Shown here: positions 1,485-16,261 of the stretch, piece by piece
Numbering within the stretch: position 1 is the stretch's first letter
Layout: each line of letters starts with the position of its first letter
Virus record (IMG/VR): IMGVR_UViG_3300033145_000235
Location: 1 to 25,382 of that record
Length of the DNA: 25,382 nucleotides
Strand: one strand, 5' to 3'
Origin: a virus
Notes under the pieces: model-generated
Databases searched by the model: none
The model's input: the letters and a program-made list of their open reading frames with translations, nothing else
Told to the model about the DNA's origin: nothing
Translations under genes and position numbers: made by a program

Positions 1485-1581
1485 ATTAACTGGCGGAAAA
1501 GGGCGAGAAATGATATTTGGGTTTAAGGATAGTAAAGACCCAAAAGCGATGAATTGGAATAAAGTTTTTAAAAAGAAATGA
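1462..1581 (+). CDS. Tiny basic protein coupled to terminase, unknown
   Basis: This 39-codon frame starts at ATG 1462 inside the end of the previous gene. It reads MKKSKRFKLTGGKGREMIFG, then a segment ending AMNWNKVFKKK, and stops with a TGA that overlaps the terminase ATG (ATGA at 1578-1581). It is strongly basic. The head-to-tail overlaps on both sides, and the fact that it exactly fills the 93-base gap left between its neighbours, are the case for a real gene. Translation probably couples into the terminase by stop-start re-initiation. No family is recognised; nucleic-acid binding is only a guess from charge. Confidence 0.55.
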   Translation: MKKSKRFKLTGGKGREMIFGFKDSKDPKAMNWNKVFKKK

Positions 1582-3866
1582 AATTTAATGACAAGAAAAT
1601 TTGTGATTTGATTAAATATAAGCCAAATAAATGGCAGAGTAAGGTTCGTAAAAGTAAAGTTCGCTTTAAAGTTATTGTAGCTGGTCGTAGGGCTGGTAAG
1701 ACTTTATTTGTGGCTAAAGACCCATTGGTAGGATTAGTCCATTATTTATTTGAAAGAGATAAAAATATTTGGATTGTTGCTCCTTGTGTAGACGAAAAAA
1801 CGAATATTTTAACTAAAAGGGGGTGGTTAAAATATGATGAACTCAGAGTTGGCGATATTGTTTTAACTCTTAATAAAAATGGGCAAGCAGAATGGCAGAA
1901 ATGTTTAAAGGTAAATATTTATAAAAAAGAAGGAAAAGTGTTATCTCGTGAATTTAGGGGGCATAGTTCTTTAACTACTATAAATCATAAATGGTTAGTT
2001 GGGTGGACGGGAAATTATAAAAATAAGAGAAGAATTAGGGGTTATAGATTTTCTACCGAAATCAAAAACAATGAATTTGTATTATGTGCTGCAAAATTAA
2101 AAACTTTACCAAAAAAGAAATATTCTAATTCTTTAGTAGAACTTGTTGGTTGGTATTGGACAGAGGGTGGAGAAAATGGGAGTGGAACAAATATTAGCCA
2201 AAATAGAGGGAAAAAAGCAAATAGAATTAGAAGTGCTCTTTTAAAAGAATTTGGCAAACCGCAAGAAAAAGGAAATAGGGTTTCTAAAAAAATTGCTTCT
2301 TGGACAGATTGGAGAAAACAGAATAGGGATAAAAATAATGATAATGGAGTTTTTTATTTGAATAAAATTGCCACTGATAAACTAAAAACAATTGCTCCCG
2401 ATAAAGTTATAAAACCCGAGTTTCTGACAAGTTTAACGCAAGAACAATTAGAACTTCTTATTGATGTTTCTGTAATGGCAGATGGACACGAGAGAAAAAG
2501 AGATGGTTATAGAGAAAGAACCATAATTCAAAAAAGAAAAGATAGGTTAGAAATGTTTCAAATGGCAGTTCAGTTAGCGGGTTATCAATCACATTTAAAA
2601 TATAGCAAAACAAGAAATATTTGGGTGTTGCATATTTTTGAAAGAAATAAAATATGGCTTGGACAAAAAAATCAAAGACAAAAAACAAAACCAGTTTATT
2701 ATAATGGCGTTGTCTGGTGTCCAACAACCAAAAATGGCACTTGGTTGGCGAGAAGAAATGGCACAGTTTATTTTACTGGAAATTCATACGACCTAACTGA
2801 AAGAATATGGGAAGAGATTACTCGTCTTTGCAGGAGAGAACTCAAACCCCTTATTAAGAAGATTTATAATACTCGGGGACAGCAAAGAATTGTAACCCAT
2901 TTAGGAACTGTTATTGAGGCAAAGTCGGCTGATAGTCCAGAAACGCTTGTGGGTAAAGGATTAGATGTCCTTATATGCGATGAGAGTGCAATGATTGATG
3001 AAAAAGCGTGGAATGAAAGCTTAAGACCATCTTTAATTGACCGTAAAGGTGTGGCAATTTTTATTGGAACGCCTAAACAGAAGAATTGGTTTTATTATAT
3101 GTTTCTTAAAGGGCAAGACCCAGCCAACAAAGAATATGAGAGTTGGCAGATTAGTTCTTTTGAAAATGAGTATATTGACAAGGAAGAGTTAGAGAAGATT
3201 GTTAAAGATATGCCCGAACTGGAATATAAACAGGAAATTAAAGCTGATTTCTTACAGGATTTTGGACAAGTTTTCCGAGATATTCGTAAAAATGTGAGAA
3301 ATTGTATGGGTAAGCCTGAATACGGGCATAGGTATATTTTGGGTGTAGATTTTGCCAAAGCAAGAGATTTTACAGTTATAACCATTGTAGATAGAGAAAC
3401 AAATCAGGTTAAATTTTTTGACCGCTTTAAAGAAATGGATTATAACCTGCAAAAGCCAAGGGTTGAGGCAGTAGCCCGCAGATATAATAATGCTTTAATT
3501 GTTGGTGATGGGACTGGCGTAGGAACTGCCGTAATGGAAGATTTAAAACTTATGGGATTAAGGGTTAAGCCATTTATTTTTTCAAGTAAATCAAAGCCAG
3601 AATTGATTAAAAAATTGATGATTGCCATAGAAGAGAGTAAAATATTTTATCCTGATATTCCAGAGTTATTGGGAGAATTGGAATCGTTTGGCAAGTGGAA
3701 TAAAGTTAAAGGTGAAACAGAGTTTTGTGCTCCACCTGGACTACACGATGATTGTGTAATGTCATTAGCATTAGCTAACTGGCTTTTAAAAAATCCGACT
3801 AATACAATTTATAAAGAAGAAGACCCTTATGTTAAGCAGTGGGGAACTGCTTATAGGGGATATTAA
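1578..3866 (+). CDS. terL: Terminase large subunit precursor with intein
   Basis: This is the DNA-packaging motor: an ATPase that pumps DNA into the prohead and a nuclease that cuts the concatemer. The 762-residue precursor carries an intein at residues 70-402, leaving a normal 429-residue terminase after splicing. The Walker A motif is AGRRAGKT (35-42). Walker B is VLICDE with D468 and E469. The RNase H-like nuclease has GVDFAK (D591), VGDGTG (D644) and LHDD (D724, D725). The N-extein ends WIVAP and the C-extein resumes SYDLTERIW, giving the usual adenine-pocket region when joined. The ATG overlaps the upstream TGA; the portal follows after 8 bases. All ATPase and nuclease residues I looked for are present, so function depends on splicing. 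Confidence 0.95.
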   Translation: MKFNDKKICDLIKYKPNKWQSKVRKSKVRFKVIVAGRRAGKTLFVAKDPLVGLVHYLFERDKNIWIVAPCVDEKTNILTKRGWLKYDELRVGDIVLTLNKNGQAEWQKCLKVNIYKKEGKVLSREFRGHSSLTTINHKWLVGWTGNYKNKRRIRGYRFSTEIKNNEFVLCAAKLKTLPKKKYSNSLVELVGWYWTEGGENGSGTNISQNRGKKANRIRSALLKEFGKPQEKGNRVSKKIASWTDWRKQNRDKNNDNGVFYLNKIATDKLKTIAPDKVIKPEFLTSLTQEQLELLIDVSVMADGHERKRDGYRERTIIQKRKDRLEMFQMAVQLAGYQSHLKYSKTRNIWVLHIFERNKIWLGQKNQRQKTKPVYYNGVVWCPTTKNGTWLARRNGTVYFTGNSYDLTERIWEEITRLCRRELKPLIKKIYNTRGQQRIVTHLGTVIEAKSADSPETLVGKGLDVLICDESAMIDEKAWNESLRPSLIDRKGVAIFIGTPKQKNWFYYMFLKGQDPANKEYESWQISSFENEYIDKEELEKIVKDMPELEYKQEIKADFLQDFGQVFRDIRKNVRNCMGKPEYGHRYILGVDFAKARDFTVITIVDRETNQVKFFDRFKEMDYNLQKPRVEAVARRYNNALIVGDGTGVGTAVMEDLKLMGLRVKPFIFSSKSKPELIKKLMIAIEESKIFYPDIPELLGELESFGKWNKVKGETEFCAPPGLHDDCVMSLALANWLLKNPTNTIYKEEDPYVKQWGTAYRGY
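1785..2783 (+). mobile_element. Intein with LAGLIDADG homing endonuclease in TerL
   Basis: This is a 333-residue in-frame insertion, from Cys70 (first residue, CVDEKTNILTKRGW) to Asn402 (end, RRNGTVYFTGN), followed by Ser403 as the +1 nucleophile. The N-terminal Hint block and a histidine block (SLTTINHKWLVG) are readable. A homing-endonuclease centre carries two LAGLIDADG-like motifs: LVELVGWYWTEGG (186-198) and LELLIDVSVMADG (291-303). These are followed by the C-terminal splicing blocks (GVVWCPTTKNGTWLARRNG). The penultimate residue is Gly rather than the usual His, as in a number of phage inteins. It sits between Walker A and Walker B of the ATPase, a favoured insertion zone. The second LAGLIDADG motif keeps an acidic residue (MADG). 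The first has Glu (TEGG), so nuclease activity is plausible. Confidence 0.93.
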
Positions 3867-6678: not shown

Positions 6679-7614
6679 ATGGCAGACCTTACATCTACTA
6701 CTTCTACAAATAGTGAGATGCTAAAGCAGTATTGGAATAAAAAGTTCCTTACTACTTTTGAGGACTCATTTGTAATGAAGAGTATTGCTCAGGTTGGAAG
6801 AATGCCTAAAGGTGAGGGAACTGTTGTTCATTGGTTAAGAATTAACAACTTACCAACTGTATCAGCTGCTCTTACCGAAGGAACTGACCCTGATTCTGTA
6901 ACTGGTGACACTGATGAGATTTCTGCAAGTTTAACCGAACAAGGAGGTTCAGTTAAATTATCAAGCAAATATCTTGATACCGCCATTGGCGGCACACTTG
7001 AAGAGACAATCAGAAGGTTGGCTTATCAGGCTGCTGAAAGAATTGACAATGTCATTGGCACTGTTGCTTATGCTGATAATGCGGCTACTGAACAATTTGT
7101 TGGTGGAGCGGTTGACGAAAGTTCAATTCCGCAATCATCTTCAAGTCGTTTAACAGTTGATGAAATCAGAAAAGCAGTTAGAACTCTTGAAAGTTTTTAC
7201 ACTCCTCGCTGGGGTGATGGGTTCTATCGTGGTGTATTGCAGGCGGCAACAAAGTATGATATTCAGGGTGATAGCACTTGGCAGGATTTTGTAAAGTATA
7301 GAGATACTCGTAAGTTAGACATTAAGGGTGAAGTTGGTGAAATCTTTGGAGTTCGCTTTATCCAAACCCAAAATGTTCCTACTCACGATAATTCTGGCTC
7401 TGCTTCAGCAGACCTTTATGGTGTGTTAATTTGCGGTCCAGATTATATCGGTATTTCTGAAATGCACAATACTCAAGTAATTATCAAAAATCCACATCCA
7501 GCATCTGACTTAAATATGTATAGCACTATTGGTTGGAAAGCAGGCTTTGCAACAAAAGTCCTTTCTCAATCTGGAGCTGTTCAGGTTTACGTAGCTGCTT
7601 CGGTTAATGATTAG
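6679..7614 (+). CDS. Major capsid protein, N4-gp56 family
   Basis: This 311-residue protein builds the icosahedral head. It has the N4-gp56 type layout: a short N-arm (MADLTSTTSTNSEMLKQYWN) and an early block, FVMKSIAQVGRMPKGEGTVV. An LTEG/SASLTEQGGSVKLSS segment comes next, with the long helix ETIRRLAYQAAERIDNVIG and the C-terminal beta/alpha core WKAGFATKVLSQSGAVQVYVAA. This is the one gene here with a clear ribosome binding site: AGAGG at 6666-6670, 8 bases before the ATG. That fits high-level expression. A TTGACA sits at 6653-6658 but no good -10 box follows. A strong hairpin (7629-7657) follows its stop codon. Confidence 0.9.
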   Translation: MADLTSTTSTNSEMLKQYWNKKFLTTFEDSFVMKSIAQVGRMPKGEGTVVHWLRINNLPTVSAALTEGTDPDSVTGDTDEISASLTEQGGSVKLSSKYLDTAIGGTLEETIRRLAYQAAERIDNVIGTVAYADNAATEQFVGGAVDESSIPQSSSSRLTVDEIRKAVRTLESFYTPRWGDGFYRGVLQAATKYDIQGDSTWQDFVKYRDTRKLDIKGEVGEIFGVRFIQTQNVPTHDNSGSASADLYGVLICGPDYIGISEMHNTQVIIKNPHPASDLNMYSTIGWKAGFATKVLSQSGAVQVYVAASVND

Positions 7615-8080: not shown

Positions 8081-8323
8081 ATGAAGTTATTAAAAAAATT
8101 AGTTTTAATTGAAAAACCAAAAAAAGAAGAAAGTAGGTCGGGTATTATTTTACCAGAAACAGTTAAAGATGAAAAACCGACAAAAGGTAAAGTTTTAGCT
8201 GTTGGACAAGAGGTTCAAGAAGTTAAAGTCGGACAAGTAGTTTTATTTAAAAAGTATGCCCTTGAAGAATATGAAGAGGGGTTCATCGTTGACGAAAGAG
8301 ATATTCTTGGGATATTTAATTAA
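8081..8323 (+). CDS. groES-like: GroES-like co-chaperonin (Cpn10)
   Basis: This 80-residue protein has the Cpn10 fold pattern: an N-terminal strand (KLLKKLVLIEKP) and a mobile loop (residues 15-25) ending in SGIILP, the part that docks on GroEL. GKVLAVG follows, then VKVGQVVLFKKYALEEYE and the C-terminal strand FIVDERDILGIF. It is shorter than the about 95-residue bacterial protein. The lid caps the GroEL ring during folding; phage versions, such as T4 gp31, tune the host GroEL for capsid folding. Its place just after the major capsid gene, with no GroEL gene in view, supports that role. It is 5 bases from the glycosyltransferase that follows. Confidence 0.88.
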   Translation: MKLLKKLVLIEKPKKEESRSGIILPETVKDEKPTKGKVLAVGQEVQEVKVGQVVLFKKYALEEYEEGFIVDERDILGIFN

Positions 8324-8328
8324 AAATT

Positions 8329-9780
8329 ATGGACAAGGAAATTAGCGTAATTATTTCAACATTTAACAGATGTAAAACTTTGCCAAGAGCAGTTAAATCT
8401 GTTTTTAACCAGTATTTTAAAAATTGGGAATTGATTATTGTTGATGACGCTTCAACTGATAATACAAGAAATATTATTAAAAAACTTCTTAAAAAATATC
8501 CAGAGTTTATTTCAAGGGTTGAGTATATTAAATTGGAAAAAAACTCTGGTTCTGATACTTTACCGAAAAATACTGGTGTAAAAAAATCAAAAGGAAAATA
8601 TATTTGTTTTTTAGATGACGATGACGAGTTTTTACCAGACCATTTACAGGTTCTTTATAATCAAATAAAAAATGATAATTTTGATGTTGTTTATGGTGAC
8701 AGAATTGTTAAAAGTAATAAAGGTGAGTTTATAGCACCAACAAGAGATTTTTATGCTCCATTACTCGGACAGGTAAACTGGATAGCAATGTGTGACCCAA
8801 TAATAAATAAAAAAGCATTTTTATCTGTTGGGGGGTTTGATGAAAGTTTACCTAAATTTGTTGACTGGAATTTATGGATTAGATTAAGTAAGGCAAATTT
8901 CAGATTTAAACATATTTCAATTCCAATAAGTAGGGTTTATATTCATAAAAAGAGTAAATCACATCTTGTTAAAAATGATGTTGACCCAAGAACTGGTGGA
9001 TATTTACCAACTTATTTTGACCCAGCAGAGTGTAAAATTTTTGCCAGTAAAACATCTTTGGGAAAAGAGAAAAAACTTAAAGTTGCTATATTTACTCTTA
9101 CAAAAGACAGATTGAAATATACAAAGAAAATGTATGAAACTATGACTAAGTTTGCCGATTATCCGTTTGACTGGTATGTTATAGACCAGGGTTCAAAAGA
9201 CGGAACAGTAGAGTGGCTAAAGGGTAAATGTAATTTAACTGCTTTAAAAGAAAATGTGGGGATTTCAAAGGGTTCAAATATGGCACTTGATAAAATTGGC
9301 GATGATTATGATATTATAATTAAGGTTGACAATGATTGTTTCTTCTTGTCTGACAAATGGTTATCTACAATAGTTGAACTTTATCGGGTTAACAGACAAC
9401 TTATTTTATCTCCTTATGTTGAGGGATTAAAGGAAAATCCAGGAGGAACGCCAAGACAGGTTAAAAATGGCGGTAATCCATATAGAAATATAGGTGATAT
9501 TTTATTGGGAGCAGTTGAACATATTGGCGGGCTTTGTATTGCCTCACCAGCAGAAGCATATAAGAATTTTAGGTGGAAAGAAAATGACTTTTATTCAGGA
9601 ATACAAGATTTGGTTTATTCCCAATATTGTCAGCAGGTTTTGCGCTATACAATGTTTTATGTTGAAAATATAAGAGTTTCTCACGGACCAGGAACAATAC
9701 AGCAACACAGAGATTTTGAAGATTATTTTGAATTAAGAAAAAAAGAAAATACAACTAAATATGTCGGAGAAAAAGTATAG
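8329..9780 (+). CDS. Two-domain GT2 glycosyltransferase
   Basis: This 483-residue protein holds two GT-A type sugar-transfer domains. Domain 1 (about 3-230) is a GT2 family enzyme: ISVIISTFNR, LIIVDDASTDNT, and the metal-binding DDDD at 96-99 in CFLDDDDEF. VGGFDESLP with DWNLWIRL follows, typical of the acceptor side. Domain 2 (about 250-480) repeats the fold: KVAIFTLTKDR, WYVIDQGSKDGT, ENVGISKGSN, and a DND motif at 334-336 in KVDNDCFF. Each domain takes a nucleotide sugar and moves the sugar to an acceptor, so one protein may add two residues. It opens the sugar cassette. Its end overlaps the methyltransferase by 20 bases, suggesting coupled translation. No membrane segment is seen, so it acts in the cytoplasm. 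Specificity is unknown. Confidence 0.88.
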   Translation: MDKEISVIISTFNRCKTLPRAVKSVFNQYFKNWELIIVDDASTDNTRNIIKKLLKKYPEFISRVEYIKLEKNSGSDTLPKNTGVKKSKGKYICFLDDDDEFLPDHLQVLYNQIKNDNFDVVYGDRIVKSNKGEFIAPTRDFYAPLLGQVNWIAMCDPIINKKAFLSVGGFDESLPKFVDWNLWIRLSKANFRFKHISIPISRVYIHKKSKSHLVKNDVDPRTGGYLPTYFDPAECKIFASKTSLGKEKKLKVAIFTLTKDRLKYTKKMYETMTKFADYPFDWYVIDQGSKDGTVEWLKGKCNLTALKENVGISKGSNMALDKIGDDYDIIIKVDNDCFFLSDKWLSTIVELYRVNRQLILSPYVEGLKENPGGTPRQVKNGGNPYRNIGDILLGAVEHIGGLCIASPAEAYKNFRWKENDFYSGIQDLVYSQYCQQVLRYTMFYVENIRVSHGPGTIQQHRDFEDYFELRKKENTTKYVGEKV

Positions 9781-10285
9781 ACAACTTGGTGCTTATCACT
9801 GGCATTCAAGAAAAGATAGTATTTATTTAAAATTAGTTGAAATTACAATAAATCAATTTCCAAATAAGGGTTCAATAATAGATTTAGGTTGCGGTGATGG
9901 ATTTGTAACTGAAAAATTATTAAATAAAGGACTTGATGTTATCGGTGTAGATAGTTCACCAATCGCCATTAAATTAGCTAAAAAACATAGTAAAGCAAAA
10001 TTTATTTTAGGTGATATAACGAAATTAGATACAAATAAAAAATATGATTATGCTTTATTACAAGAAGTTATAGAACATTTAGATTATCCTGAAAAAATTA
10101 TTCCAATTTTAAAAAAAATAGTTAAAAAATATTTTGTAGTTTCAGTTCCAAGATTAGGATTTGAAAGCGAAGAAGATAAAAGGGGATATACAGATGAAAC
10201 ATTATTAGATTTATTTAAAGATTTTTATGCTGATTTAATAGAATTTCATTCAAGTTCTGTAATTTATAAGTTTATAAAAAAATGA
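9761..10285 (+). CDS. Class I SAM-dependent methyltransferase
   Basis: This 174-residue protein has the Rossmann-fold methyltransferase motifs. The SAM-binding loop is IIDLGCGDG (39-47). The acidic residue D64 lies in VIGVDSSP, and a FILGDIT segment precedes motif LLQEVIEHLDYPE (99-111). This resembles the small methyltransferase_11/12 class often found in glycan clusters. It most likely methylates a sugar hydroxyl or carboxyl in the glycan made by the surrounding enzymes. A small molecule or protein target cannot be excluded. It is short, with a reduced C-terminal part. It overlaps the glycosyltransferase before it by 20 bases and the deacetylase-like gene after it by 4 bases (ATGA). Confidence 0.85.
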   Translation: MSEKKYRQLGAYHWHSRKDSIYLKLVEITINQFPNKGSIIDLGCGDGFVTEKLLNKGLDVIGVDSSPIAIKLAKKHSKAKFILGDITKLDTNKKYDYALLQEVIEHLDYPEKIIPILKKIVKKYFVVSVPRLGFESEEDKRGYTDETLLDLFKDFYADLIEFHSSSVIYKFIKK

Positions 10286-10977
10286 GTTTTAAAAAACCAA
10301 ATTGGTTAAGATTTGAATTAGAAGATAGGGGAGAAGTTCGTTTTAGAGATGATGATTTATTTTGGAAGGAAGGTCAAGAATTACACAAATGGGGAGATTT
10401 TAGTAATCAGGAATTTATATTTTGGGATGAGAAGTTTAAGGAGCATAAAGTAAAACACATAGTCGCTTGTATATGTTCTGGAATAGATAGCAACCCTGAA
10501 CTTGTAAAATATATTAGAGCAAATAGGCACATTGAAGTTCAAATACACGGCTGGAAACATAAACCTTATTATGACCTTTCTTATGAGGAATGTTATAATG
10601 ATTTTAGGAAATGTAAAGAAAAGATTAAACAAAGGTTTGGTATAGTTCCAACAATCTGGTATCCGACTTGGAATAAAAGTGGTGTAAATAGTGATAAGGC
10701 GGCAGAAGATTTAAATTTAGAAGTTAGAAAAACACATTTTACATTACCAGAATATCTTGGTATGGGTGAATTAGATTATAGATATGAGAGGGAAATAAAC
10801 TTTCATTATTGGAGTAAAGATAGGAAACAAATAATTAAAAAAGATAATTGTGAACTTGAAGAAATAAAACACGGAAATACATATTGGCTTGAAGCTTGTT
10901 TATATAAATATGCCAGCCGTAGAAGAAAAGGATGTTATTGGGATAAAAAACTTAATCGTGTAGTAATATGCGTATAG
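10282..10977 (+). CDS. Polysaccharide deacetylase-like (NodB fold), copy 1
   Basis: This 231-residue protein resembles the NodB/CE4 metal-dependent deacetylase fold, which removes acetyl groups from N-acetyl sugars. The metal ligands look present: RFRDDDLFW (D23-D25, motif 1) and HGWKH (H89 and H93, motif 2, HxxxH). WYPTW (126-130) stands where RxPxG (motif 3) is usual, but the Arg is missing. It lies between the methyltransferase and the GT4 gene, overlapping by 4 and 10 bases. The second copy (13634-14293) has the same neighbours. Activity is plausible but the changed motif 3 leaves doubt. A non-catalytic glycan-binding role is possible. No signal peptide is present, so it acts in the cytoplasm, on a sugar intermediate rather than on the cell wall. 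Confidence 0.65.
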   Translation: MSFKKPNWLRFELEDRGEVRFRDDDLFWKEGQELHKWGDFSNQEFIFWDEKFKEHKVKHIVACICSGIDSNPELVKYIRANRHIEVQIHGWKHKPYYDLSYEECYNDFRKCKEKIKQRFGIVPTIWYPTWNKSGVNSDKAAEDLNLEVRKTHFTLPEYLGMGELDYRYEREINFHYWSKDRKQIIKKDNCELEEIKHGNTYWLEACLYKYASRRRKGCYWDKKLNRVVICV

Positions 10978-11885
10978 CAGCAATGACACAACATATGCTT
11001 TGTTTTGGTGGAGTTCGCAGGTGGCTTGAACTTGGCAATGAATTTACAAAACAAGGACACGATTATACAATTTATGTTGATAAAATGTCTTATGGTCCAG
11101 ATTGGTTTGATTATAAGGGTAAAATTGAGAAGAAAGAAGACCACCCAGAAATTGACGCAGATGTTTTAATGGTTGGTAATGCCTTACATTTTTCAGAATT
11201 ATTAAGATTTAAAGGATTAAAAGTTCTTTATTTAATAGGACACTCACCATATTATATTAAAAAATATCAAAGAGTTATAGATAAAGTTGATTTAGTTGTG
11301 GGAAATAATCATAAATGGGCTGATATTTTCCCGCAGGCAGAAATTATTGTTGGCGGAATAAATACAAACTTTTTCAAACCGCTTGATATTGAAAAAATTA
11401 AAAATTCTGTTCTTTTTTATGGCAGGTGGGATAGTGGTCATTTACAAGTTGAAAAACTTTATAATCAGATAAAAGATTTAGATATTTATAAAATGTCTTT
11501 TGATACAAAGAAATATGGAGCGGTTGGTGTTTGTGAAATAAATGGTTCTAATCAAGAAGATTTAAGGGAAGCATATAATAGGGCAACAATGTTTATTTCA
11601 ATTTTAGCAGATAGCGGAATAAATAATACCGTGTTAGAAGCAATGGCTTGTGGGTGTCCAGTTATAACAAATGGCGTAGGTTGTAAGAAATTTGCCATAG
11701 ACCATAAAACAGCCCTTGTAGTTAACGAGAATGAGCTGAGAGGGGCGATAGAGGAATTGTTGAATAATATGTCATTGAGAAAAAAAATCGCTCAGAACGC
11801 AATTAAATGCGTTTCAGAGTATAGTTGGGAAAATGTGGCTAATAAATTATTAAAATTATGGAAAAAAGAATTGAACCAAGGGTAG
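10968..11885 (+). CDS. GT4-like glycosyltransferase
   Basis: This 305-residue protein has a GT-B layout. The N-terminal Rossmann part starts MRIAAMTQHMLCFGGVRRWL. A linker, GGINTNFFKP, leads to the C-terminal donor-binding domain, which carries VLFYGRW and the family block LEAMACGCPVITNGVG with E224, the nucleotide-sugar-binding glutamate. The GT4 family retains the anomeric configuration and uses NDP-sugars. It is the last enzyme of the first half of the cassette and overlaps the next, unknown gene by 28 bases. At 305 residues it is slightly shorter than typical GT4 enzymes, mostly in the N-terminal domain. The substrate is unknown. Confidence 0.85.
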   Translation: MRIAAMTQHMLCFGGVRRWLELGNEFTKQGHDYTIYVDKMSYGPDWFDYKGKIEKKEDHPEIDADVLMVGNALHFSELLRFKGLKVLYLIGHSPYYIKKYQRVIDKVDLVVGNNHKWADIFPQAEIIVGGINTNFFKPLDIEKIKNSVLFYGRWDSGHLQVEKLYNQIKDLDIYKMSFDTKKYGAVGVCEINGSNQEDLREAYNRATMFISILADSGINNTVLEAMACGCPVITNGVGCKKFAIDHKTALVVNENELRGAIEELLNNMSLRKKIAQNAIKCVSEYSWENVANKLLKLWKKELNQG

Positions 11886-12259
11886 AAGAAGGGGTTTCTG
11901 AACCAAAAGAAATAGAAGTTCCTGATAAATCCGTTCATAAAGAATTTATCGGGGATTTAGATGAAATAACAGACGAAATGCCTTTGGCAATTTTTGAAAA
12001 TAAAAAAAGACAACCATTTTTAGTTGAACATTTTAATGCTGGTGAAATTTACGAACACAATGGAGATGATTTTCAAAAAAAAATAGTTCTTATTGATAAA
12101 TGGATTAAAGACAAAATAAATGTCAAAGAAATGAGTTTAAGTATAGGTTCTTATAAAAATGTTTTAGACGAACTTATAAATGAAACAAAAGTAAATTCTG
12201 ATTCTGATTTTGTTAAAATAAATAAATTATACGATTTTTTAAAATTTTTATATGAGTAG
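11858..12259 (+). CDS. Uncharacterised protein upstream of the surface-type protein
   Basis: This is a 133-residue protein, not recognised. The first about 45 residues are acidic and look disordered (EEGVSEPKEIEVPDK, GDLDEITDEM). The middle has a compact stretch (FENKKRQPFLVEHFNAGEIYEHNGD). The end is helical (KKIVLIDKWIKDKINVKE; VKINKLYDFLKFLYE). It overlaps the GT4 gene before it by 28 bases and the probable surface protein after it by 8 bases. It may be a chaperone or attachment partner of that protein. No enzymatic motif is visible. Confidence 0.6.
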   Translation: MEKRIEPRVEEGVSEPKEIEVPDKSVHKEFIGDLDEITDEMPLAIFENKKRQPFLVEHFNAGEIYEHNGDDFQKKIVLIDKWIKDKINVKEMSLSIGSYKNVLDELINETKVNSDSDFVKINKLYDFLKFLYE

Positions 12260-12935
12260 AAGCAATTCCTATCATAGGCAGGAAATACAAAACGATGTTT
12301 ATGACGCCAGTGCTGGCGTTTGGAAAACTGCCCCATATGGTTGGGACGGCTCTTCTAATGTTCAGTTTAAGGTTGATGCTTCTGGAAATGTTAAATCTGT
12401 TATTACGGATGGAACTAATGATGCTTATATTTGGAATTCTGGTGCTATAACCTGTGTTGATGAAATTCATTATAGAATAAAAAATTCAAAACAATGGGCT
12501 GTTTCTCATAAATTTGAGGCGGTGGCTGATGGTGAAACTGCTGTTGTTCATATTAAAACTGCGGAAAAAACTGCTCACGGAGATTATTATATAGTATCAG
12601 ACGGGAAATGTTGGATTGATTTTTGTGAAGCAGTAACTCTTTCTGCTAATGCTGACGGAACTGCTTTAGACGACTTTTGTATAAATCGTGAAACAACAGC
12701 AAGTGCCGTAACAAATTGTTTTTATAATCCAATTATTACAGATACTGGAAATATATTAGAGAGTGCCGCACTTGGAACTGCTGGAAAATTTATTGGGTCT
12801 GGTGGTTCATCTGAAATGGGTTTATATTGGTATCTTAAACCCTCTACAAGTTATGCCATAGTAGTAACTAATAAATCGGGGGGAAATTCCGATATTGTGA
12901 TAGGATATGGTTGGCACGAACATATTAGTGTTTAA
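12252..12935 (+). CDS. Probable virion surface/decoration protein
   Basis: This 227-residue, beta-rich, Ser/Thr/Asn/Gly-rich protein has no enzyme motif. The C-terminal about 160 residues resemble a common phage beta-sandwich structural domain: AVSHKFEAVADGETAVVHI, a strand segment DYYIVSDGKCWIDFCEAV, the NRETTASAVTN turn, and MGLYWYLKPSTSYAIVVTN. The closing segment SGGNSDIVIGYGWHEH is very typical. Such proteins are found on heads or fibres. It stands between two glycosylation half-cassettes and has many Ser, Thr and Asn on probable surface loops, so it is a natural candidate acceptor; that is inference. It overlaps its upstream neighbour by 8 bases and is 6 bases from the GT2 gene. Confidence 0.7.
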   Translation: MSRSNSYHRQEIQNDVYDASAGVWKTAPYGWDGSSNVQFKVDASGNVKSVITDGTNDAYIWNSGAITCVDEIHYRIKNSKQWAVSHKFEAVADGETAVVHIKTAEKTAHGDYYIVSDGKCWIDFCEAVTLSANADGTALDDFCINRETTASAVTNCFYNPIITDTGNILESAALGTAGKFIGSGGSSEMGLYWYLKPSTSYAIVVTNKSGGNSDIVIGYGWHEHISV

Positions 12936-12941
12936 AAAAAT

Positions 12942-13673
12942 ATGACAAGATTTACAATTATAACAGCACTTTATAATCATAAAAAGTATTTACCACAACT
13001 TATTAAAAGTTTGAAAGCACAGACATTTAAAGATTTTGAAGTTATATTTTGTGATGATGGTTCAAAAGACGGAACAAAAGATTTTTTTAAAAATTCCAAA
13101 TATCAGTATTACAGAAATAGATTTGATTTTGGTATGCGTATGTCAAAAGTTGTTAATAAAGGGATTAAGCGAGCCAAAGGTGAATATATTGTTATGATAA
13201 TGGGTGATAGTTATCCGCCAGCAGATTATTTAGAAAAACTTGATAAAATTGTAAAAGATAATAGGGTTGTATGTGCTGTTAGAAGACACATTAAAGACGG
13301 AAAAGTAATTGATATAGATTATAGAGTAAAATATAATATTATACCTCAATTTGATACTTTATTAACTGGTCAGGTTTGGAATAAAATAACTGGAAACGGA
13401 TTGGTAATTCCGACAAAATGGTTAAAAGAAATTGGCGGTTGGGCTAAAATTAAAGGTTATGGGGCAGATGATAATATAACAGCGTTTAGATTATGGACAA
13501 AGGGTTTAGAGTTTATATCATTATATTCATTGGTTTTATATCATAATTGGCACGAAGACAGGGGAACTGAAAAGAAAAATGTAAAGCAACTTTCAGACGA
13601 GATTATTAAATTTTTTAATAATAAATTAAGTTTATGGACAAGGATAAAAAACAAATTAAAAGTATCTGTTTAG
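12942..13673 (+). CDS. GT2 glycosyltransferase, single domain
   Basis: This 243-residue GT-A enzyme starts MTRFTIITALYNHKKYLPQL, with VIFCDDGSKDGT as the nucleotide-binding block. GEYIVMIMGDSYPPADYLEKL stands at the position of the metal-binding DxD motif. Here it reads MGDS, so the motif is changed: one Asp is kept and the other replaced. The acceptor-side segment VIPTKWLKEIGGWAKIKGYGADDNITAFRLW contains the typical acidic ADD. It starts the second half of the cassette and overlaps the deacetylase-like gene by 40 bases. It may use another residue for the metal or have altered donor use. Confidence 0.83.
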   Translation: MTRFTIITALYNHKKYLPQLIKSLKAQTFKDFEVIFCDDGSKDGTKDFFKNSKYQYYRNRFDFGMRMSKVVNKGIKRAKGEYIVMIMGDSYPPADYLEKLDKIVKDNRVVCAVRRHIKDGKVIDIDYRVKYNIIPQFDTLLTGQVWNKITGNGLVIPTKWLKEIGGWAKIKGYGADDNITAFRLWTKGLEFISLYSLVLYHNWHEDRGTEKKNVKQLSDEIIKFFNNKLSLWTRIKNKLKVSV

Positions 13674-14293
13674 ATTTAGATGATTGGTATCCTTATTCTG
13701 GCGGATTAAACGAAATGTTAGAAATTAAAAAGCATTATCCAGGTTTTAAAATAACTCTTTTTACTATTCCATTTCCCGCAAGTTTTACAATGAAGGGTGG
13801 TGTTGCTAAAAGTTTTAATATGGGAAAATACAAGGACTGGGCGAAACTGATGAATAGTTTTGACTGGATACAAATAGCGGTTCACGGAACAATGCACATA
13901 AAGGGTGAATATAATTGTGACAGAAAAAGGGCAAAACTGCTTTTAAAGGCGGCTGAAAATGTTTTTAAACAAGCAGGGATGAAATATGAAAAGATATTTA
14001 AAGCACCATATTGGCAGTTAAGCCAAGAGGCATTAGATGTTTTATATGAGAAAGGTTATGCCGTTGCATTGAACCCAGAACAACCATTAAAATTAAAAAT
14101 ACCGAAAGATATGAAAGTATATGTTTTCAATCATAACATTAAAGACATATTCCCGAATAAAGAACACTTAAAATCTCACGGACACGTTTTGACATATAAT
14201 AATGCTTTTAAAGATAGATTAGGTTTAATTTGTAGTTTACCAACTAATGTAGAGTTTAAATTTGTATCACAATGTCTGGAAAAAATATCATAA
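13634..14293 (+). CDS. Polysaccharide deacetylase-like (NodB fold), copy 2
   Basis: This 219-residue protein shows the CE4 pattern more clearly than copy 1. Motif 1 is CLDLDDW (D14, D16, D17). Motif 2 is VHGTMH (H84 and H88). KAPYW (123-127) matches the RxPY-type motif 3 with Lys for Arg. A later SHGH segment resembles the terminal His motif of the fold. It likely removes an acetyl group from an N-acetyl sugar intermediate in the cytoplasm, as there is no signal peptide. It overlaps the GT2 before it by 40 bases and the GT4-type gene after it by 22. This repeats the order seen at 8329-11885. Confidence 0.7.
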   Translation: MDKDKKQIKSICLDLDDWYPYSGGLNEMLEIKKHYPGFKITLFTIPFPASFTMKGGVAKSFNMGKYKDWAKLMNSFDWIQIAVHGTMHIKGEYNCDRKRAKLLLKAAENVFKQAGMKYEKIFKAPYWQLSQEALDVLYEKGYAVALNPEQPLKLKIPKDMKVYVFNHNIKDIFPNKEHLKSHGHVLTYNNAFKDRLGLICSLPTNVEFKFVSQCLEKIS

Positions 14294-15339
14294 TTTTTTT
14301 AAATAAAACAGGTTCTCGTCATTATAGGTTAAATCCGCAGATTGATTATTTAATAGAAAAGGGTTATAAAATTATTGCGAGGGAGTGGGATAATAAAATT
14401 GATATAAATGAAATGAAATGGGCTGATTTAGTTATACTTGAAATGATTTCCGCTCCAAAGTTAATTAAAAAAATACAAGGATATAATTGTAAGGTTTTAA
14501 TTGATTATGACGATTTAGTTGAAAGCGTCCCAAAACTTCACCCGAATTATGAATTTCTTAAAGGAAAAAGGGGGCGTAAAAAATGGAGAGAAGTAAAAAA
14601 ATCCTGTAAAATTGCTGATGGAATTATTGTTGCTTCACCAGAGTTAAAAAAGAGATACGGAAGATATGCTAAAAAATGTTTATTATTTCCAAATTATTTA
14701 GATGAAAAACATTGGAAAAAAACTTATTGTCCAAATGACAGCGACCAAATAAGATTATTATGGGCTGGTTCAACTTCACATAAGGCAGATTTAATCCCGT
14801 TCAAACCTGTCTTAAAAGATATTCTTGAAAAAAATAAAAATGTAAAGTTTATTTATATTGGGACTGGCGGGGCAAGTTCTTCAAATCCGATAACTGAATT
14901 ATTTTATGGTGAAGATTTTTTCAAAGGTTTTCCAGATAATAGGGAATATATTATTGGAACGCCAAGTGGTGCTTGGTCATATAAATTAGCAAGTTTAAGG
15001 GCTGATATTGGATTAGCACCATTAGAAAAAAATTATTTTAATAAGTGTAAATCTTTTTGTAAATATCTTGAATACTCAATAAATAAAATTCCTGCTGTTT
15101 ATTCTGGTTGGTTTTATAAAGACATTGTAAAACATAATGAAACTGGATTATTAGCAAATACGCCAGAAGAGTGGAAAAAAGCAATTAAAAGTTTAATTGA
15201 TAATCCCGATTTAAGAAAAAGATTAGCAGAAAATGCTTATCAAGATGTTATAAAAAATTATAATATCAAAGACCATTTACAAACTTGGGAAAACTTTATA
15301 AATTTAATTAAAGACAAGGGACATTTACTTGTCTTTTAA
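14272..15339 (+). CDS. GT4-type glycosyltransferase, second cassette
   Basis: This 355-residue GT-B enzyme has an N-terminal domain with GSRHYRLNPQIDYLIEKGYK, VLIDYDDLVESVP and ADGIIVASPELKKRYG. It continues with CLLFPNYLDEKHW, then the donor domain IRLLWAGSTSHKADLIPF, FIYIGTG, and ADIGLAPLEKNYFNKCKSF followed by CKYLEYSINKIPAVYSG. The Glu in KYLEYS is at the usual GT4 donor position. The C-terminal tail (LRKRLAENAYQDV, YNIKDHLQTWENF) is typical. It is the last gene of the sugar cassette, overlaps the deacetylase-like gene by 22 bases, and ends inside a hairpin. The substrate is unknown. Confidence 0.85.
   Translation: MSGKNIIIFLNKTGSRHYRLNPQIDYLIEKGYKIIAREWDNKIDINEMKWADLVILEMISAPKLIKKIQGYNCKVLIDYDDLVESVPKLHPNYEFLKGKRGRKKWREVKKSCKIADGIIVASPELKKRYGRYAKKCLLFPNYLDEKHWKKTYCPNDSDQIRLLWAGSTSHKADLIPFKPVLKDILEKNKNVKFIYIGTGGASSSNPITELFYGEDFFKGFPDNREYIIGTPSGAWSYKLASLRADIGLAPLEKNYFNKCKSFCKYLEYSINKIPAVYSGWFYKDIVKHNETGLLANTPEEWKKAIKSLIDNPDLRKRLAENAYQDVIKNYNIKDHLQTWENFINLIKDKGHLLVF
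15310..15336 (+). terminator. Stem-loop closing the sugar cassette
   Basis: AAAGACAAG (15310-15318) pairs exactly with CTTGTCTTT (15328-15336), 9 bp around a 9-base loop. It ends next to the stop codon (15337-15339) of the GT4 gene, so the last codons of that gene sit within it. The T-rich 3' arm (TCTTTT) gives weak terminator character. It marks the boundary between the sugar cassette and the adaptor gene. Confidence 0.4.
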
Positions 15340-15350
15340 TATACAAAAAT

Positions 15351-16070
15351 ATGGCTACATTAGATGAAATAATATCTCAAACACAATTTAAAAGCGGAAT
15401 AAGTAATACTACTACATTGTCTACTGCCACAATTTTAACTTATGTAAATTACGGTTATCAGTTTTTAATTGATAAAGTGGTTGAGGTTAATGAAGATTAT
15501 TTGGAAGAGCAAAAAACAACTGCTAATCTTGTGTCAGCACAAGCATATTATTCTTTACCCGATGACTTTATAAAAATGAAACAGGTTAGATTGGCTTATT
15601 CCACACCAAGTAGCGATTTAGATTATAATATCGCAAGGGAATTAGATATTACCGCAATAGAAGACCCTGCCTATGAAGAGAATTATTCAGAAAGTGCCCC
15701 ATTTTATGATATTACTGGCGACCATTATAGGGTATATCCAAAACCAGAAAATAATGTGACTAATGGAATTTATTTATATTATATTGCCAGACCAGATGAT
15801 TTAGCGGCTGAAAACTCTGCTGATGCTATTACTGGTATTCCTTCCCAATATCACGAACTTATATCAACTTATGCTGCCAAAAAAGTTTGTGAAAAGTTTA
15901 GTTTATGGGATAAACACAATATATTGGCGAAAGAATTTAATTTCGGAATTAAAACTATGCAGGATAATCTTAAAACAAGAAATCTTGATAGAAGGGACAG
16001 AATAAAATCTATTGTTGAAATTGGTCGCAGACCATATACTAATAAACGAATAAGTGACCTTGACTGGTAA
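15351..16070 (+). CDS. Probable adaptor / head-tail connector protein
   Basis: This 239-residue protein has the common phage adaptor layout: MATLDEIISQTQF, an N-terminal helix pair (TILTYVNYGYQFLIDKVVE), then AYYSLPDDFIKMKQVRLAY. SAPFYDITGDHYRVYPKPENN follows, with an IYLYYIARPDDL strand and IPSQYHELISTYAAKKVCEKF. The 'LP.DF..' and 'I....Y.YP.P' signatures are typical of the protein that binds below the portal and connects to the nozzle in short-tailed phages. It ends in a basic segment. It follows the sugar cassette by 11 bases and continues the assembly operon. Confidence 0.8.
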   Translation: MATLDEIISQTQFKSGISNTTTLSTATILTYVNYGYQFLIDKVVEVNEDYLEEQKTTANLVSAQAYYSLPDDFIKMKQVRLAYSTPSSDLDYNIARELDITAIEDPAYEENYSESAPFYDITGDHYRVYPKPENNVTNGIYLYYIARPDDLAAENSADAITGIPSQYHELISTYAAKKVCEKFSLWDKHNILAKEFNFGIKTMQDNLKTRNLDRRDRIKSIVEIGRRPYTNKRISDLDW

Positions 16071-16072
16071 TT

Positions 16073-16261
16073 ATGACTTTACCTGACACAAATTATACAA
16101 AGGCAACTTTACCAACTACCAACTATGCTGATAGGGGTGGTGATTATTGGAGGTCAGAATTTGGTATTGCTCAATTTGATATGGATAGATTTGATAGCGG
16201 TTCAATAGCAACAAATTATACAAAGGCAACTTTACCAACAACAAATTATACTAAATTATAA
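16073..16261 (+). CDS. Short repeat protein, unknown
   Basis: This is a 62-residue protein with two copies of NYTKATLPTTNY (one at each end) and a third partial NYTKL, around a centre GGDYWRSEFGIAQFDMDRFD. At the DNA level the two copies share an exact 29-base direct repeat. It starts 3 bases after the adaptor stop and precedes the tail fibre by 5 bases. The Thr/Asn/Tyr-rich repeats suggest a small exposed structural peptide, perhaps a fibre or connector accessory, with sites that could be glycosylated. No family is recognised. Confidence 0.6.
   Translation: MTLPDTNYTKATLPTTNYADRGGDYWRSEFGIAQFDMDRFDSGSIATNYTKATLPTTNYTKL
16088..16116 (+). repeat. 29-bp direct repeat, copy 1
   Basis: Exact copy of 16211-16239. 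It encodes TNYTKATLPT in the small repeat protein. The first bases are ACAAATTATACAAAGG. The second copy is followed by a further partial unit (ACAAATTATACTAA at 16241), which suggests recent tandem growth of the gene. Confidence 0.8.
16211..16239 (+). repeat. 29-bp direct repeat, copy 2
   Basis: Exact copy of 16088-16116, lying near the 3' end of the small repeat gene and in the same reading frame. A shortened third unit follows at once. Identity at the DNA level, with synonymous sites included, points to recent duplication or recombination. Confidence 0.8.

Follow-up and report, generated by a model that had tools for sequence, protein, structure and literature searches.

A predicted deacetylase-containing glycan cassette kept behind the capsid gene in a phage clade

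What do sugar-modifying enzymes do among the head genes of a phage? The question is raised by the IMG/VR virus record IMGVR_UViG_3300033145_000235, analysed here at its complete length of 25,382 bases (the window), which comes from a podovirus-like phage whose TerS, TerL, portal, scaffold-like protein, major capsid protein (MCP), GroES, adaptor and tail genes share one strand. Flanked by the capsid/GroES genes and the adaptor lies a cassette with the order GT2d-methyltransferase-NodB1-GT4a-u11858-surf-GT2b-NodB2-GT4b, in which GT stands for glycosyltransferase (Table 1). A sequence-only reading of this DNA had placed nine open reading frames (ORFs) at this site, seven of them encoding sugar-type enzymes, with overlaps of 4-40 bases between neighbours and a 6-base gap ahead of position 12942; Pfam and PHROG matches identify the seven enzymes, PHROG matches identify the flanks, and the coordinates agree with the reported spacing. 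A search of the + strand from the end of MCP to the end of GT4b for a terminator-like site found none. Sequence comparisons establish the predicted enzyme classes, their intact catalytic residues and a clade-wide locus that lies between MCP and the adaptor or neck genes. What the enzymes make is probably, in our view, a short, partly de-N-acetylated heteroglycan, assembled on a virion protein by a late, phage-encoded cytosolic pathway.

The position of the cassette in related phages carries much of this argument. The collection scans were pattern-based and incomplete, the contigs come from metagenomes, genes were called mechanically as ORFs, and the survey profiles were built from the sequences that they annotate, with remote labels (the methyltransferase and u11858) softer than those for GT2d, NodB2, GT4b and MCP. 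An alignment search with GT2d returned 53 contigs, corresponding to 46 clusters at 90% identity. MCP was located upstream, on the same strand and within 1.4 kb, in all 45 independent clusters having at least 1.5 kb of upstream sequence, while NodB2 and GT4b were both present in 27/27 clusters having at least 4.5 kb downstream, with a gap of less than 400 nt between them in 24 of these 27. The constancy of the site supports the earlier proposal of a dedicated glycan pathway in the head operon, and cassettes away from structural genes, which had been named as evidence against that proposal, did not appear among the 45 loci. One contig, L086, is an exception in detail, with some cassette genes upstream of portal, yet still within the head operon.

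Other searches gave a similar picture of gene order. Written as a DNA pattern, the GT4b motif FN..KS...YLE......P.V matched 54 IMG/VR stretches, several of them from relatives of the window phage that have the order MCP-GT2d-methyltransferase-GT2b-NodB2-GT4b-adaptor. The core that recurs across IMG/VR is MCP, GT2d, then the methyltransferase, GT2b and variable sugar genes, followed by NodB2, GT4b and either the adaptor or u11858, and 40-51% relatives of the window adaptor stand directly behind GT4b in other phages. The variable genes between GT2d and NodB2 encode a DegT aminotransferase, UDP-galactopyranose mutase, NAD-dependent epimerase, FdtA/RmlC-like isomerase (ketoisomerase) and GT-D glycosyltransferase, and these accessory genes are, by their predicted products, nucleotide-sugar chemistry. 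An MCP alignment search, in which sugar genes were not a criterion, gave 12 contigs; although its alignment was built from cassette phages and the sample leans towards them, glycan genes were found between MCP and adaptor in all 9 contigs with sequence behind MCP, starting with GT2d in 8. In one locus (L112, from the same record as L022), GT2d and GT4b are accompanied by two GT2b-type genes but by no NodB2, so the deacetylase does not occur in every cassette. Scans of IMG/VR with the single proteins MCP, NodB1, NodB2 and the GT4 of phage MW202801 yielded no match, and two candidates were set aside: L014, retrieved with a GT4 alignment, belongs to a different phage that lacks the cassette, and a Listeria NodB match is a bacterial-type sequence in an unverified record.

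The cassette enzymes themselves appear to be intact. GT2d has full-length relatives at 40-50% in 53 viral contigs, and its two DxD motifs (D96/D98 and D334/D336), one per domain, were both kept in 43/43 relatives, which makes two active sites likely. The best 80 matches to GT2d in bacterial genomes align mainly over the N-terminal GT2 domain; the fused protein appears to be phage-type. The methyltransferase was found again after GT2d in relatives. The NodB1 sequence holds DD and HxxxH motifs and matched PDB deacetylases at E 0.002. Invariant throughout the 38 NodB2 proteins compared are D17, which is the metal Asp, the HxxxH residues H84 and H88, a P-x-W motif and HxH (H182, H184); the position beside the metal Asp is occupied by Asp in 27 proteins and by His in 11, a pattern like that of DUF2334-like proteins. 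Members of the NodB2 family matched DUF2334 in 8/10 cases and PF01522 in 6/10 at E <= 0.01, and of nine bacterial genomes one gave a weak match to the NodB2 profile. With the Pfam match of NodB1 and the invariant metal ligands of NodB2, both NodB-like proteins are assigned to the deacetylase superfamily.

These enzymes suggest a possible order of events. GT2d, through two active sites, GT2b and GT4b would attach sugars in sequence, NodB2 (joined by NodB1 in the window phage) would strip N-acetyl groups from amino-sugar residues to leave free amines, and the methyltransferase would cap or methylate the glycan, with NodB1-GT4a forming an additional arm in the window phage. We infer that the genes would be co-transcribed late with the capsid gene, and the step order and sugar identities are likewise suggested by the enzyme classes. 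The target would be part of the virion, namely MCP or a different head protein and not surf in particular, and the product might shield the particle or tune its surface charge and adsorption. A remote phage, MW202801, adds to the case, because it has GT2-PhyH-methyltransferase-NodB-GT4 at the same junction. A bolder version, which we put forward only as a speculation with rather little chance of being right, is that the whole clade has an obligate, self-encoded virion glycan built by a logic like that of Nod factors, in which GT2/GT4 sugars, N-deacetylation by NodB2 and methylation, possibly on the freed amine, would give a cationic custom coat diversified by arms such as NodB1-GT4a.

Several observations weigh against a virion glycan. 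The pathway is a prediction from genes, and genomic position informs timing and linkage, not the target. Virion glycosylation has been demonstrated in few phages, and no acceptor co-varies with the cassette. Three close outgroups whose capsids are related, Pascal, API480 and Y3, have only small genes or none at the site, so the cassette is not needed for assembly of the capsid fold. In addition, the Pfam scores of the window NodB2 fall slightly short of their cut-offs, and a structure model predicted from its sequence alone was of low quality (predicted local distance difference test, pLDDT, about 51) and gave no significant Foldseek match.

The same enzymes could instead remodel host envelope polysaccharide during infection, acting on cytosolic lipid-linked host intermediates to bring about superinfection exclusion or a serotype-like conversion. 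Phage glycosyltransferases often serve conversion, the first domain of GT2d matches PHROGs labelled GtrB-like O-antigen conversion, and an integrase was detected in 3/16 larger relatives, which may be temperate. However, most relatives have no visible integrase, and among these 16, whose records may be incomplete, a GtrA-type flippase (PF04138) was found in none, although control genomes matched. Hydropathy analysis detected no membrane segment in any cassette protein of the window, so none qualifies as a membrane-bound bactoprenol glucosyltransferase, and the locus is fixed within the head operon rather than at a lysogeny or moron position; we consider envelope remodelling unlikely.

The fixed position also bears on two other explanations. 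In the first, the enzymes would hypermodify phage DNA with sugars, like the glycosyltransferases of T4-like and TET-bearing phages. In its favour, phage glycosyltransferases are reported to decorate DNA with a range of glycans (Pyle et al. 2024, as cited by PMC12619734), and a PhyH-type dioxygenase lies within the MW202801 cassette. Against it, the locus is tied to the capsid gene and not to replication genes, and the 16 relatives contained no thymidylate-synthase/hydroxymethylase-type enzyme (PF00303); we regard this role as very improbable. Tet_JBP was not found in the 16 either, in a search that matched no control genome. In the second, the genes would be ordinary metabolic cargo that entered a hot spot for insertions next to the capsid gene and serves no dedicated purpose in the virion, which would be consistent with the varying gene content between GT2d and NodB2 and with the low GC of the sugar genes (29%, compared to 33% in the flanks and 36.8% in surf). 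Hot-spot cargo would be lost or swapped, however, and the GT2d...NodB2-GT4b core is kept over deep divergence with all catalytic residues intact, so that we rate cargo as quite a poor explanation. The reading that best accommodates these results remains a glycan built on a virion protein.

The sequence-only reading had gone further on three points, seeing a duplicated cassette, a distinctive pair of NodB enzymes and, in surf, the obvious acceptor. The repetition proved to be one of enzyme classes, not of descent. BLASTP of NodB1 against NodB2 showed no similarity (E 1.7) and the two differ in their best Pfam model; GT4a and GT4b align over only 79 amino acids (E 0.002); and the 31% identity of GT2d and GT2b over 127 amino acids covers the common GT2 domain alone. 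Tandem duplication of one trio was rejected on the finding that GT2b, NodB2 and GT4b resemble genes of other phages far more closely than they resemble GT2d, NodB1 and GT4a. Two NodB enzymes are indeed present in the window phage, but a single NodB is the rule in the clade and NodB1 is peculiar to this phage: the block NodB1-GT4a-u11858-surf, between the methyltransferase and GT2b, was seen only here, with no relative of NodB1 in the surveyed cassette loci and only remote relatives of GT4a (e.g., 21% in L079).

The acceptor role of surf was not borne out, since almost none of the relatives has surf in its cassette. A homologue with 45% identity is located upstream of portal in L080, and a u11858/surf-like pair directly follows MCP in L086. 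These positions elsewhere in structural operons suggest a separate structural module, placed inside the cassette here by rearrangement, and on the same grounds the u11858/surf pair was rejected as a part of the cassette. A Pfam search with surf gave no match, and its structure model was poor (pLDDT 35.5), without a significant Foldseek match.

Table 1. Positions of the cassette genes and their flanks in the window, with the matches on which each assignment is based.
Feature	Position	Strand	Evidence
MCP, locus anchor	6679..7614	+	phrog_1357, 138 bits; 34-41% identity to MCPs of cassette phages
GroES-like co-chaperonin	8081..8323	+	phrog_3188, E 1.7e-14
GT2d, predicted fused two-domain GT2 glycosyltransferase, conserved core	8329..9780	+	Glycos_transf_2, 160 bits; second domain recognised too
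S-adenosylmethionine (SAM) methyltransferase	9761..10285	+	Methyltransf_31, 52 bits (best match); Methyltransf_11; NodS 28.6 bits (cut-off 24)
NodB1, polysaccharide deacetylase	10282..10977	+	PF01522, 43.5 bits (cut-off 23.1)
GT4a glycosyltransferase, insertion member	10968..11885	+	Pfam, 51 bits
u11858, small acidic protein, recurrent structural-operon gene	11858..12259	+	homologues follow GT4b or MCP in related phages
surf, predicted structural protein, independent of the cassette	12252..12935	+	weak phrog_5335 match, E 7e-5 (PHROG of unknown function)
GT2b glycosyltransferase, frequent core member	12942..13673	+	Pfam, 82 bits; 33-49% in relatives
NodB2, DUF2334/NodB-type deacetylase, conserved core	13634..14293	+	DUF2334 25.6 (cut-off 26); PF01522 19.2 (cut-off 23.1)
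GT4b glycosyltransferase, conserved core, most widely shared element	14272..15339	+	phrog_7162, 111 bits
Adaptor-like (head-tail) structural protein, cassette boundary	15351..16070	+	phrog_399

In the MCP tree, cassette phages fall on one side, and phages with a lone GT4 and those without fall on the other, together with MW202801 on a long branch; the separating branch is weak (91/78). The lone-GT4 phages (L023, L026, L028, L030, L035, L039, L042, L047, L056, L059, L071) form a second group with related MCPs, in which a single phrog_7162-type GT4 separates MCP from the structural gene that follows; this may be a minimal version of the cassette system. A mobile intron may interrupt the capsid gene of some relatives: putative LAGLIDADG-type endonuclease ORFs stand directly ahead of truncated MCP or GT2d frames in L033 (7370-7975), L049 (5690-6211) and L095 (6359-6973). 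A dehydrogenase-like protein of ~250 amino acids (GxGxxG, VHSPVRGVHPNL) adjoins NodB2/GT4b in L045 (7270-8001), L067 (10541-11287), L083 (1653-2450) and L086 (3389-4150), and the one copy tested gave no Pfam match. Two genes behind the adaptor encode repetitive proteins. The window protein at 16073-16261 (62 amino acids) consists mostly of repeats like TLPTTNYTK, rich in Thr and N-Y-T, and is a conceivable glycan acceptor; in the cassette phage L067, a collagen-like protein (GAQ/GPQ repeat; 13364-13801) is a possible one. Apart from the cassette, the window TerL (1578-3866) apparently holds an intein of ~333 amino acids at about 1785-2783, as read from the sequence and an alignment, with borders at Cys70 (APC/VDEKTNILTKRGW) and at FTGN/S and a weak phrog_85 match over that stretch.

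If the predicted glycan is real, phage particles of a broad uncultured clade would bear self-made de-N-acetylated glycans from a pathway tied to the capsid gene as firmly as scaffolding is, and virion glycosylation would be a clade-level trait rather than an isolated curiosity. MCP-GT2d...NodB2-GT4b would then be a genomic marker for glycosylated phages, and the cytosolic deacetylases and glycosyltransferases, acting on a protein acceptor, could be used as tools.

Comparable gene sets are known from other systems. Chlorovirus PBCV-1 encodes its own glycosyltransferases and methyltransferases for its capsid glycan, although it is an unrelated eukaryotic virus and the likeness is by description only. 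The enzymes NodC-NodB-NodS of Nod factor synthesis resemble the cassette in having a GT2, a NodB-type deacetylase and a SAM methyltransferase side by side, and the cassette methyltransferase scores above the NodS cut-off; however, NodS is not its best match, GT4 enzymes are present, there is no NodA, and the context is a virion operon. A similar arrangement is that of podovirus ctQWt234 (MW202801), whose methyltransferase-NodB-GT4 genes have the order and the MCP-adaptor junction of the window phage, the adaptor being assigned by position after profile and pairwise comparison gave no match. Its region from MCP to adaptor contains radical SAM, GT2, PhyH, methyltransferase, NodB and GT4 genes, and it differs from the window phage in the radical SAM and PhyH genes, in a NodB without the second Asp of the DD motif, and in remote sequences. 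The radical SAM/SPASM and PhyH-type dioxygenase genes of this Manatee Spring phage (L006, 19640-22137) are worth recording as members of a glycan cassette. Pagevirus and API480-like podoviruses, to which the window capsid has a distant kinship of about 25-30%, share the related capsid fold and the TerL-portal-scaffold-MCP order but have no glycan genes between MCP and adaptor. The mycobacteriophages Che8 and Rita, like the window phage, encode glycosyltransferases of their own, and their major capsid protein is reported to bear a covalently attached glycan (Freeman et al. 2023, from the accounts in PMC11256854 and PMC12619734); the passages on it mention no deacetylase. The window phage, in contrast, has three to four GT active sites, deacetylases and a methyltransferase in one MCP-adaptor cassette, and its glycan is predicted from genes. 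In the open-access literature we found no description of a deacetylase-containing structural cassette in a phage. Phage virion glycosylation is already known; what appears to be new here is the deacetylase-containing cassette and its clade-wide fixation behind the capsid gene.

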